Shown one piece after another: positions 26,326 to 59,520 of a DNA stretch of 64,000 nucleotides. Every line of letters begins with the position of its first letter. The first letter of the stretch is position 1. Both the position numbers and the translations under genes were made by a program. The notes beneath the pieces were generated by a model. It made no database searches. It saw nothing but the letters and a program-made list of their open reading frames with translations, and was not told the origin of the DNA. The stretch is from a bacterium (lineage in GTDB: Bacteria > Patescibacteriota > Microgenomatia > UBA1406 > GWC2-37-13): positions 186,001 through 250,000 of the forward strand of contig JAJYIQ010000001.1 in assembly GCA_021789995.1 (NCBI GenBank). Reading direction: 5' to 3'.

Positions 26326-28410
26326 TTATCCGATTTTCTGAAGATTGACTCTCCCCTGCTGGTCGATCTGGATGACTTTTACTTTAATTTTATCGCCGAT
26401 AGCGACGACGTCGTGAGGATTTTTAATGAATTTGTTGGATAATTTCGATACGTGGACCATTCCTTCTTTGCCGGGTAAAAGCTCGATGAAAGCGCCGAAT
26501 GGCAAAATTCTTTTAACCGTTCCTTCGAATTCTTCCCCGACCTGGATCTCGCGCGTAATATTGTTGATCGCCTGAACCGCTTCCTCGACTTTATTCTTGT
26601 CAATCCCGGTAATCGTCACTGTTCCGTCGTCGGCGACATTGATGTCGGTATCGGTGCGGGCAATCAGCGTACGGATGTTTTTGCCACCCGGCCCGATAAT
26701 TTCGCCGATTTTATCCTGTGGCGGTTTGAGAACAACCACTTTCGGCGCGAACTGGGATATCTCTCCCCGCGATTTATCAATCGCTTTATTCATGATACTT
26801 AAAATATAAAGACGGGCTTTCTTCGCTTTTGCTAAAGTTTCGCTAATTATTTTATCGGTCAGGCCGTTATTTTTAACATCCAGTTGAATGGCGGTAATGC
26901 CGGTCGCGGTCCCGGCCACTTTGAAATCCATTTCTCCGGAGAAATCCTCGATTCCCATAATGTCAGTCAGGACCAGATAATCATTATCGGATTTTGTCAG
27001 AAGCCCCATGGCAATGCCGGCGACCGGCGCCGCAATCGGCACACCCGCATCCATAAGCGCCAGGGATGAACCGCAGGTCGAGGCCATCGAAGTCGAACCG
27101 TTTGATGACATCACTTCGGAAACGACGCGAATGGTATACGGAAAATCCATTTGGCCGGGCAAAACCGGTTCAATCGCTTTTTCCGCCAGGGCGCCATGGC
27201 CGATTTCCCGACGGGAAGGAAAACCGATCCGGCCGGTTTCCCCGACCGAGTATGGCGGCATATAATAATGATGAATATATCTTTTTGCTTCTTCGCCTTC
27301 CGGGCTTTCGATCAATTGCTCCAAGCTCGGTGCTCCCAAAGTAACGATCGACATGACTTGGGTATCGCCGCGATGGAAAAGAGCTGACCCGTGGGTACGC
27401 GGGAGCACGGACACTTCCGCCCCGATTTCCCGAATATCGTCCGGTCCGCGGCCATCGATCCGTTTTTTTGTTTTTAGGATCTTTTCGCGAATCAATTGCT
27501 TGGTAAGATAATCGATTACTTTTGTCACCATTTTCCGTTCGAATTCATCCTTGTATTTTTCCAGGACGGCTTCGACTACCACCTGCAGTGCTTCTTCATC
27601 ATCGAATTCCTTTTCCGCTTTTTTCAAAATCAATTCATCCAAATTTTTTTTGAAGTCTTCTTTGATTATCTTTACCAATTTTTCGTCATAGAGCGGTTCG
27701 TCGTTGACGTTTTTCGGCCGGCCCGCTTTTTTTTGCAATTTTTCGATGAAATCGATCACTTTGTCGTTTTCTGCTTTAGCCAACCGGATACCTTCCTCGA
27801 CGACATCTTCACTTAACTCTTCCGCTTTTGTTTCGATCATGACTACTTTTTCCTTATTCGAAGATACAATTAAATCAAGGACGGAATATTGCTGCACTTC
27901 CGTGGTCGGATTGACGGTAAAAGTCCCTTTATTTTCGTCTTTAATGTAGGCCACGCGCATTGTACTGATTGGCCCGTTCCAGGGAATGGATGATAGATGC
28001 AGCGCCGCGGAAACGGCCATCGCCGCCAGGATTTCCGGCGAATTTTCGCCATCGACGGACAGTAATGTAATAATAATCTGGATATCACGGCGTAAATTTT
28101 TCGGAAAAAGCGGACGGATGGAGCGGTCGATCAAACGCGCTTTCAGGATAGCTTCGTCGGATGGCCGGCCTTCCCGTTTTACCCAACGCGAGCCTTTGAT
28201 CCGACCGCCGGCATAAAGTTTTTCGACATATTCCACCGACAGCGGGAGATAATCAATATCTTCGTGATTACGGCCGACAGTGACGGTCACCAATACACAA
28301 GTATCGCCCAAACGGGCAAAAATCGATTGTGTCGCCGCATTCGCCAGCTTTCCGGTCTGGAAGGTTAACTTTTGACCATTAATCTCAATTGAATCTTCAA
28401 GCACACTCAT
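26326..28410 (-). CDS. pnp: Polynucleotide phosphorylase
   Basis: 3'-5' phosphorolytic exoribonuclease of mRNA decay. The 694 residues contain two RNase PH-like domains (the second with GRGPDDIREIG and RGDTQVMS), an alpha-helical linker, then KH (GEIIGPGGKNIRTLIA near residue 567) and S1 (GTVKRILPFGAFIELLPGKEG) domains. It lies 77 bases behind rpsO, the classic rpsO-pnp operon. The spacer contains TAGGAAAATTCCTA (28459-28472), a small inverted repeat that could be a processing hairpin. Confidence 0.97.
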   Translation of the reverse strand: MSVLEDSIEINGQKLTFQTGKLANAATQSIFARLGDTCVLVTVTVGRNHEDIDYLPLSVEYVEKLYAGGRIKGSRWVKREGRPSDEAILKARLIDRSIRPLFPKNLRRDIQIIITLLSVDGENSPEILAAMAVSAALHLSSIPWNGPISTMRVAYIKDENKGTFTVNPTTEVQQYSVLDLIVSSNKEKVVMIETKAEELSEDVVEEGIRLAKAENDKVIDFIEKLQKKAGRPKNVNDEPLYDEKLVKIIKEDFKKNLDELILKKAEKEFDDEEALQVVVEAVLEKYKDEFERKMVTKVIDYLTKQLIREKILKTKKRIDGRGPDDIREIGAEVSVLPRTHGSALFHRGDTQVMSIVTLGAPSLEQLIESPEGEEAKRYIHHYYMPPYSVGETGRIGFPSRREIGHGALAEKAIEPVLPGQMDFPYTIRVVSEVMSSNGSTSMASTCGSSLALMDAGVPIAAPVAGIAMGLLTKSDNDYLVLTDIMGIEDFSGEMDFKVAGTATGITAIQLDVKNNGLTDKIISETLAKAKKARLYILSIMNKAIDKSRGEISQFAPKVVVLKPPQDKIGEIIGPGGKNIRTLIARTDTDINVADDGTVTITGIDKNKVEEAVQAINNITREIQVGEEFEGTVKRILPFGAFIELLPGKEGMVHVSKLSNKFIKNPHDVVAIGDKIKVKVIQIDQQGRVNLQKIG

Positions 28411-28487
28411 AAAATTTTATTAAGTTATTAAGGTAGTTAGTGATCAGCAGTTAATAGTTAGGAAAATTCCTATCTACCAACTACTCC

Positions 28488-28757
28488 CTATTTCTTTAAT
28501 GCTAATTCCTTAATTAATTTTTTATACCGTTTGTCGTCTAATTTCTGAAGATAATTCAAAATCCGGCGCCTTTTGGCGATTACTTTAAGTAAACCCCGGC
28601 GGGAATGATTGTCTTTTTTGTTGATATCAAGATGTTCCGCCAACCGGTCGATTTTCTGGGTTAGAAGAGCAATCTGGACTTCCGGCGAACCGGTATCACC
28701 CTTTCTCTGGGCGAATTTTTCGATAATTTTTTGCTTCTCATCAGGTAATTTAACCAT
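28488..28757 (-). CDS. rpsO: 30S ribosomal protein S15
   Basis: 89 residues, the normal length. It has the signature HSRRGLLKVIAKRRRILNYL and the central QIALLTQKIDRLAEHL helix. S15 binds the 16S central domain early in 30S assembly. It is transcribed ahead of pnp and divergently from the small membrane protein gene at 28782, from -10 boxes that overlap. Confidence 0.97.
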   Translation of the reverse strand: MVKLPDEKQKIIEKFAQRKGDTGSPEVQIALLTQKIDRLAEHLDINKKDNHSRRGLLKVIAKRRRILNYLQKLDDKRYKKLIKELALKK

Positions 28758-28765
28758 AGTTTTAC

Positions 28766-28773
28766 ATTATAAT
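28766..28773. promoter_or_regulatory. Palindromic shared -10 (rpsO / small membrane gene)
   Basis: ATTATAAT is its own reverse complement, so it offers TATAAT on both strands. It is exactly 8 bases from the rpsO ATG on one side and 8 bases from the ATG at 28782 on the other. Both transcripts would be leaderless and mutually exclusive. Confidence 0.65.
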
Positions 28774-28781
28774 GGATAAGT

Positions 28782-29045
28782 ATGATACTTGCAAGTGAAC
28801 TGATCGTCATGATGCTGATTATCCTTTTCGTTCCACCCGGAACGATAACAATTATACTGTTGATCGCCCTTGCCGCCGCCGCCGTGTATGCTCTTTGCCG
28901 GCTGAAACTGCCCAAAAGATTTTCCTTTTTGGCGTCATTCCTGGTTGGCGCGCTGCTGTCCATCCTTGCTTTAGGCGTTTTTGATATAATCAATGCTGCT
29001 CTCCTGGCCAGCCTATTTGTTGGCTTGACGATTTTGCTAAAATAA
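28782..29045 (+). CDS. Small hydrophobic membrane protein, unknown function
   Basis: 87 residues, almost entirely hydrophobic, with three predicted membrane helices (about 5-22, 24-41 and 47-84 as one or two helices) and a short basic loop RLKLPKR. I do not recognise a family. A well-placed promoter and a stop codon overlapping the -10 box of metG support it as real. It may be cotranscribed with metG. Confidence 0.6.
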   Translation: MILASELIVMMLIILFVPPGTITIILLIALAAAAVYALCRLKLPKRFSFLASFLVGALLSILALGVFDIINAALLASLFVGLTILLK

Positions 29046-29049
29046 TACT

Positions 29050-30471
29050 ATGAACAAAAAATATTTTTATATCACAACCACCGCCCCTTATGTCAACGCT
29101 GATCCGCATATCGGTTTCGCTTTGGAAATAATCCAAGCCGATGCTATTGCGCGATTTAAACGGCAGCGGGGATATGATGTCGTTTTTGGATTCGGTACCG
29201 ACGAACACGGGCAAAAAATTTATCAGAAAGCATTGGATCAAAAAATCGATCCCCAGACATATTGCGACGAATATGCCCTAAAATTCGATAGCCTGAAATC
29301 GCTTCTTAATTTAAGTTACGACCATTTTATTCGGACGACCGATGACAACCATGTCAAAGCAGCCCAGGAATTCTGGCGGATTTGTGATAAAAACGGTTAT
29401 ATTTACAAAAAAAATTACAAAATAAAATATTGTATCGGTTGTGAATTGGAAAAAACCGATTCGGAGCTGGTCGGCGGCCGTTGTCCGCTTCATCCCAATC
29501 TGCAATTGGAGACAATTGAGGAAGAAAATTATTTTTTCAAATTTTCCGCCTTCCAAAAAAAACTGCTCGATTTTTACGAACTAAATCCCGGTTTTGTTAT
29601 CCCCGATTTCCGGTTTAACGAAATCAAAACTTTCGTCAAAAAAGGCTTAGAAGACTTCAGTATTTCGCGGCTGAAAAGTAAAATGCCCTGGGGGGTGGAT
29701 GTCCCCGGCGATGCGGAACACGTGATATATGTTTGGTTCGACGCCCTAATTTTTTATATCTCCACTCTCGGCTGGCCGGGAAAAAATACCGAATACGACC
29801 GATATTGGCCGGGAATTCAGGTGGCCGGCAAGGACAATTTGCGCCAACAAACTGCTATCTGGCAGGCGATGCTCATGGCGGCCGGCCTGCCAAATACCAA
29901 ACAGGTTTTCATCCACGGTTTCATCACCTCCGACGGCCAGAAAATGAGCAAAAGCCTCGGCAATGTCATCAATCCGTTTGACCTGGTTAAAATATATGGC
30001 ATCGATGCCGTCCGCTATTATTTATTGAAGGAAATTCCTCCGGCTGACGATGGCGATTTTTCCCATCGCCGGATGAAAGAAATTTATGATGCCGATCTGG
30101 CTAACGAACTGGGTAATCTTGTTTCCCGGCTGACAACGATAGCCGCCACCGATAATTTAACCGTTGATGACACAACAATACAGCAATACAACAATTCAAC
30201 AATAGAATTATTCGACTCATATCAATTTACCATACTGCTGGAAAATATCTGGAAAGAGATCAAAGAATTGAATAAAACCGTTGATGATTTTGCCCCCTGG
30301 AAAAAAAACCCATCGGAAAGAAAAGATTTCCTACTTCAATGTTTTAAAACATTGAAGTCAATCGGATTCCGGCTGCAACCGTTCCTGCCGACAACCGCCC
30401 AAAAAATTCTTAACCTTACTTCTGGTAAAATTAGGAAAGCGCCCGCTCTATTTCCCAGATTGTCCATATGA
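29050..30471 (+). CDS. metG: Methionyl-tRNA synthetase
   Basis: Class I synthetase charging tRNA-Met. It has HIGF at 20-23, a single zinc knuckle (CIGCELEK ... CPLH), the phrase FIHGFITSDGQKMSKSLGN with KMSKS at 298-302, and an anticodon-binding domain. There is no C-terminal EMAP/Trbp111 domain (473 residues). Near residues 374-385 a Gln/Asn-rich stretch is encoded by CAATA-type simple repeats. A TAAAAT box lies 6 bases before the ATG. Confidence 0.97.
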   Translation: MNKKYFYITTTAPYVNADPHIGFALEIIQADAIARFKRQRGYDVVFGFGTDEHGQKIYQKALDQKIDPQTYCDEYALKFDSLKSLLNLSYDHFIRTTDDNHVKAAQEFWRICDKNGYIYKKNYKIKYCIGCELEKTDSELVGGRCPLHPNLQLETIEEENYFFKFSAFQKKLLDFYELNPGFVIPDFRFNEIKTFVKKGLEDFSISRLKSKMPWGVDVPGDAEHVIYVWFDALIFYISTLGWPGKNTEYDRYWPGIQVAGKDNLRQQTAIWQAMLMAAGLPNTKQVFIHGFITSDGQKMSKSLGNVINPFDLVKIYGIDAVRYYLLKEIPPADDGDFSHRRMKEIYDADLANELGNLVSRLTTIAATDNLTVDDTTIQQYNNSTIELFDSYQFTILLENIWKEIKELNKTVDDFAPWKKNPSERKDFLLQCFKTLKSIGFRLQPFLPTTAQKILNLTSGKIRKAPALFPRLSI

Positions 30472-59452: not shown

Positions 59453-59520
59453 CTTCACACAAACTCATTGATAAGATTGTTGTGATATCCCGTTTACATT
59501 AATTTGTAGATTATAATCCA

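Follow-up and report, generated by a model that had tools for sequence, protein, structure and literature searches.

A likely bidirectional promoter on a self-complementary -10 element between rpsO and a divergent membrane gene in a patescibacterial family

Layout of the divergent intergenic region at rpsO

How can two divergent genes be transcribed when their start codons lie only 24 bp apart? This question is raised by rpsO and a small membrane gene with metG behind it, in a stretch of 64,000 nucleotides from a patescibacterial genome that we refer to as the window. The gap (28758-28781) is made up of 8 nt, ATTATAAT and another 8 nt, and along the forward strand the locus reads CAT (28755-28757), AGTTTTAC, ATTATAAT (28766-28773), GGATAAGT and ATG (28782-28784). 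ATTATAAT is its own reverse complement and presents TATAAT on both strands, with the two hexamers overlapping at 4 of 6 positions. An earlier note on this DNA had described the box as self-complementary, readable as TATAAT on either strand and placed 8 nt from each start codon, and this description is exact. The features of the locus are the following.

28766..28773, no strand: ATTATAAT, self-complementary and the putative common -10; intact at rpsO in 24 of 31 family promoters
28766..28771, minus strand: -10 hexamer TATAAT towards rpsO, from the sequence and the family loci
28768..28773, plus strand: TATAAT again, the mirrored -10 facing the membrane gene and metG, without a -35-like hexamer at 16-18 nt (best 2/6)
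28789..28794, minus strand: -35 hexamer TTGCAA of the rpsO promoter, within codons 3-5 of the membrane ORF (10/12 together with the -10)
28758..28765, minus strand: 8-nt gap from the -10 to the rpsO start codon, without a Shine-Dalgarno sequence
28774..28781, plus strand: 8-nt gap from the mirrored -10 to the membrane-gene start codon, without a Shine-Dalgarno sequence
28488..28757, minus strand: rpsO, ribosomal protein S15, 89 aa, start 28757 (PF00312, E 3e-32)
26326..28410, minus strand: pnp, polynucleotide phosphorylase, downstream of rpsO (PF01138, PF00575, PF00013)
28782..29045, plus strand: small membrane protein, 87 aa, F(V/I)PP-like motif family (family profile matches in 30 of 35 family loci)
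29050..30471, plus strand: metG, methionyl-tRNA synthetase, start 4 nt past the membrane ORF (PF09334, E 1.4e-96)

The 24-bp gap is likely to act as a promoter in both directions, with a single palindromic -10 at its core. As judged from the sequence, this -10 probably serves both directions, strongly towards rpsO, where a conserved -35 is found, and weakly towards the membrane gene and metG, where none is found. The two directions are unequal in that the -35 lies on the rpsO side only. The 8-mer ATTATAAT alone is at chance level in the window (3 copies vs 3.20 expected). The combination TTGCAA-N17-TATAAT towards rpsO occurs once vs 0.01 expected, a pattern that was picked after seeing the site. 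The membrane ORF at 28782-29045 gave no Pfam match above the cut-off. A further TATAAT inside this ORF (28985-28990) is a possible candidate for a promoter of metG.

Conservation of the box and of its neighbours

We searched 57 genomes, found rpsO in 53 and examined these 53 loci, 35 of which are from the same family (f1); the family loci are related to each other and counts over them are not independent. An in-frame TATAAT-N5..12-ATG was present at rpsO in 31 of the 35 family loci, with a -35 at 17 nt in 24 of the 31 (TTGCAA in 16, TTGAAA in 8). The palindrome, that is, AT before TATAAT, was intact in 24 of these 31 promoters, representing 22 genera. It was also intact in 5 of 5 further loci (L098, L100, L101, L102 and L105; L101 and L102 are from one bin, and the other 6 of the 11 rpsO loci there are apparent repeats of genomes already used). 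At the control genes pheS, glyS and thrS such a promoter was present in 53 of 90 loci, and AT preceded it in only 3 of the 53 (Fisher p 8e-12 for rpsO vs control promoters, relatedness ignored). Over the 36 family genomes, AT preceded TATAAT at 580 of 7115 TATAATN{5,10}ATG places, chance places included. The proposal of the earlier note that one -10 is shared by the two divergent genes is supported by this retention of AT. Alignment of 26 loci showed that the bases completing the palindrome were kept about as well as the -35 (A in 25/26, T in 23/26). Most spacer columns were not conserved, and four others were conserved to some degree, including a T in 22/25, a T in 24/26 and a C or T in 25/26.

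The gene opposite rpsO is also retained. Profile searches revealed the membrane protein in 30 of the 35 family loci, and 27 of the 35 have metG on the membrane-gene side, as far as the retrieved flanking sequence extends. In the 18 loci from the wider order and class, no member of the membrane family was detected at E values up to 1e-3. AT was present in 23 of the 26 loci with both the membrane gene and the promoter, vs 1 of the 5 without the gene (p 0.005, relatedness ignored). This correlation is weak, because all 5 loci that lack the membrane gene still have a T five bases ahead of the -10, and the promoters there differ elsewhere too. For the same reason, some of the additional conservation is attributable to rpsO, and a membrane-side discriminator (bases 2-3 past the mirrored -10), which we had considered, was dropped and is not claimed. 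Membrane gene and palindrome also part company in L009, L012 and L016, where the gene is present and the palindrome missing, and L018, L021, L030 and L032 carry the membrane gene with no such promoter at all.

The spacing is less constant than the box. The earlier note had asked whether the arrangement is kept in relatives, and this holds for the palindrome but not for the 8/8 spacing: the rpsO-side gap is 8 nt in 19 of the 31 family promoters, and the membrane ATG lies 8 nt past the mirrored -10 in 5 of 26 loci (L001, L002, L004, L020 and L027), as well as in 3 of the 5 further loci (L098, L101 and L102). In L009 the membrane-side gap is 7 nt and the palindrome is broken. The membrane ATG is 27-43 nt from the mirrored -10 in 18 of the 26, three of which additionally carry an ATG in frame at -2 or +2, and there is no candidate ATG in the remaining 2. 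The 8/8 layout therefore recurs in a subset of relatives only. Exact 8/8 symmetry as a conserved feature is ruled out; the gaps of other two-sided pairs in this genome are 9/7, 6/8 and 10/6, and the membrane-side gap varies within the family.

The metG gene itself has its best match at 82% identity, followed by Candidatus Roizmanbacteria at up to 74% and then by other Patescibacteria. The metG beside rpsO is 41-49% identical to that of the window in six loci (L011, L014, L016, L018, L029 and L030) and 57-86% identical in the other 20 relatives, a split that could reflect either two metG lineages or in-place replacement. In 13 order- and class-level relatives the rpsO open frame is 134-183 aa long, compared with 89 aa here, and has a Lys/Ala-rich stretch far upstream of the S15 domain.

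Leaderless genes and bidirectional promoters

We analysed the whole host genome (898,136 bases in 4 contigs) for the arrangement of TATAAT shortly before a start codon. TATAATN{4,12}ATG occurs 289 times vs 151 times for the reversed control, with a gap of 6 in 31 of the 100 places listed, and TATAATN{5,10}ATG exceeds its reversed control in 54 of 54 genomes. Genes were called with a hexamer-based caller that is blind to promoters and was the same for both genomes compared. An exact TATAAT lies 6-9 nt before the start of 55 of 386 genes here (404 kb) vs 0 of 160 in E. coli K-12 (200 kb); the gap is 6 in 26 of the 55, 7 in 9, 8 in 12 and 9 in 8, which places the peak among called genes at 6 and the second at 8. 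Shine-Dalgarno-like sites were present at 16 of the 386 genes and at 37 of the 160 E. coli genes in the stretches examined. The 16S tail (C4:221985-222001) still ends GGATCACCTCCTT and keeps CCTCCTT, though such sites are rare.

This signature resembles that of the TA-led (leaderless) genes of Zheng 2011 (PMC3160421), in which, according to the available parts of that paper, TANNNT stands ~10-12 bp before the start codon, no Shine-Dalgarno sequence is present and TA-like signals at such positions are taken as the mark of a leaderless gene. Both genes at the present locus have these traits, with TATAAT ending 8 nt before each ATG and no Shine-Dalgarno sequence in either 8-nt gap. They differ from the TA-led genes in that two such genes point apart here and have one signal in common. 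The groups named as rich in TA-led genes in the available parts are Actinobacteria and Deinococcus-Thermus, and the terms 'divergent' and 'candidate division' are absent from those parts (PMC3160421). In the accessible portions of PMC6851277 and PMC12641178, a remark on YchF is all that bears on leaderless genes in these bacteria. Read from the sequence, the 8-nt gaps would make an mRNA with a 2-nt leader as possible as a 5' end at the start codon itself.

In other bacteria, rpsO can be autoregulated by S15 through its leader, which requires a structured 5' leader. The present locus shares with that system the control of rpsO and differs from it in that, if rpsO is transcribed from the promoter as we read it, there is no room for leader-based S15 autoregulation. 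An Rfam search of 27900-29400 gave no match up to E 1. Bacterial bidirectional promoters were reportedly described in a paper of 2021. The promoters of Grainger and co-workers (PMC10268837, PMC12825309) resemble the present box, as far as the available text describes them, in having a near-symmetric -10 that works on either strand, divergent RNAs and mutually exclusive polymerase binding; how far each direction is favoured depends on additional elements. Such promoters carry opposite-strand -10s with common bases, and 4 of 6 positions are common here. Among the start-to-start registers given in the available part of PMC12825309, 18 bp is the most frequent, 10 and 23 bp are frequent too, and small variations occur; these registers are favoured rather than obligatory. 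At our locus 21 bp would be predicted with starts 7 nt past each hexamer, and the two hexamers are perfect. The word 'leaderless' appears in the accessible text of neither PMC10268837 nor PMC12825309. Our literature search found no report of bacterial promoters that are both leaderless and bidirectional, and no promoter map for this uncultured family. Bidirectional promoters and leaderless genes are each known; their proposed fusion in a 24-bp gap would be new.

In the mechanism that we propose, a sigma-70-type RNA polymerase would bind the box in either orientation, one at a time. The rpsO-facing polymerase would use the -35 and the -10 and produce an rpsO mRNA with no leader or one of ~2 nt, and this direction should be the stronger because of its -35. 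The opposite-facing polymerase would use the mirrored -10 without a -35 and give a weaker membrane-metG mRNA, nearly leaderless in this genome. With initiation 7 nt past each hexamer, the starts would fall at 28759 and 28780, 21 bp apart. The arrangement may mainly reflect genome compaction, permitted by leaderless translation, and competition between the two directions is possible.

Rival readings and other compact divergent pairs

We asked how common such compact pairs are in this genome. Among 49 divergent pairs in the 404 kb, the starts are at most 24 bp apart in 9 and at most 45 bp apart in 14, vs 0 and 1 of 28 in E. coli (p 0.022 and 0.007, respectively). The corresponding counts are 2 and 3 of 33 divergent pairs in G026, from the same family, and 1 and 5 of 27 in G053, from the same class. 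Two of the nine, C3:274527 and C3:21192, have starts 6 and 8 bp apart, too close for a -10 to fit in between, and are not counted as examples. The pattern ATTATAATN{5,10}ATG matches 26 times in the genome vs 4 for the control, and 12 of the 26 matches come from six palindromes with ATG on both sides. At four of these six two-sided ATTATAAT places, the rpsO site included, ORFs of at least 80 aa open on both sides.

C3:153750: two-sided ATTATAAT pair, 643/335 aa
C3:155545: two-sided ATTATAAT pair, 262/458 aa
C3:214766: two-sided ATTATAAT pair, rpsO/membrane gene, 89/87 aa
C4:192426: two-sided ATTATAAT pair, 102/557 aa

Of the five places other than rpsO with ATG 5-10 nt off on both sides, three thus open long ORFs both ways and two do not. 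At C3:391939 one ATG opens a single codon, and at window position 59510-59517, a candidate second symmetric pair (10/10), the frames that follow the two ATGs are just 1 and 3 codons long; both were rejected. Among the seven one-sided ATTATAAT places, only two open ORFs over 80 aa from the tested ATG, and the motif count alone therefore overstates the class. Counted once per promoter over the host genome, G026 and G053, AT precedes TATAAT in 5 of 15 elements of compact pairs vs 5 of 73 others (p 0.011), a modest excess in compact divergent pairs. A second element, ATTATATACT, with a 23-bp register, is used by two more pairs, at C2:92966 and at window 10622/10646. In the latter (C3:196622/196646), a CofD-like gene with a GTG start and a GNAT gene are 23 bp apart and their -10s overlap in ATTATATACT. 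Divergent genes with starts separated by 22-31 bp, and with -10s on the two strands that are shared or directly adjoining, are also seen at C3:153740-153765, C3:155538-155561, C4:192415-192440, C2:92966-92991 and C2:63813-63845.

It is unlikely, if well short of negligible, that the promoter serves rpsO alone, with AT being a preference of a strong promoter and the membrane gene and metG being transcribed from another promoter or by read-through. The -35 in the rpsO direction only and the T that persists in all five loci without the membrane gene would fit that reading, as would the L006 locus, which retains ATTATAAT although its membrane gene is missing. However, outside compact divergent pairs AT occurs at just 2 of 45 other near-start TATAATs in this genome, and it is also scarce at the control promoters (3/53). 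Moreover, in 23 of the 24 loci with an in-frame membrane ATG, there is no other -10 (at most one mismatch) 5-10 nt before that ATG. That the palindrome is a chance product of an AT-rich gap, with a functionless membrane side, is very improbable. The window has as many copies of the 8-mer as chance predicts, and the copy at 59510 has ATG on both sides with neither opening a gene, yet conservation over 22 family genera, all five further loci and the contrast with the control promoters speak against chance.

A stronger form of the bidirectional reading, in line with the coupling of ribosomal protein output to the membrane gene and metG put forward in the earlier note, is that the box is a regulatory switch in which polymerase competition couples S15 to the supply of the membrane protein and MetRS. 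Occupancy should be exclusive because the hexamers share 4 of 6 bases, and the note's statement that the two transcripts cannot initiate together is expected to hold on steric grounds, as the available text of PMC12825309 says likewise. The retention of the membrane gene (30/35) and of metG on its side (27/35) would also suit a switch, and competition was shown when one direction was strongly activated, according to the same portions of PMC12825309. An effect on output, however, does not follow from exclusivity, since in those portions basal transcription was too low for competition at 5 of the 5 promoters tested (PMC12825309). The other compact pairs join varied genes (YqeY/unknown, GNAT/CofD, TPR/type IV-like ATPase and polysaccharide export/epimerase), and similar layouts around such varied genes suggest compaction rather than a single dedicated rpsO-metG circuit. 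We consider the switch rather improbable.

The reading that we favour, a bidirectional promoter on one palindromic -10, joins two known phenomena, the bidirectional -10 and leaderless genes, in a very small unit kept in 22 genera, and a small genome may spend just 22-24 bp on two promoters. A broader view, which we advance only tentatively and doubt more than we believe, is that the locus belongs to a recurrent class in Patescibacteria, in which the intergenic region would consist of a palindromic -10 and two 6-10-nt gaps, both mRNAs would be leaderless and any -35 would lie inside the coding sequence of the opposite gene. The rpsO/membrane/metG locus would then be an old member, kept through most of the family, with the box fixing the ratio of ribosomal protein to MetRS. 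The reading that we favour also makes a prediction for several gene pairs in the genome; among the compact pairs, polysaccharide export and epimerase may be functionally linked.
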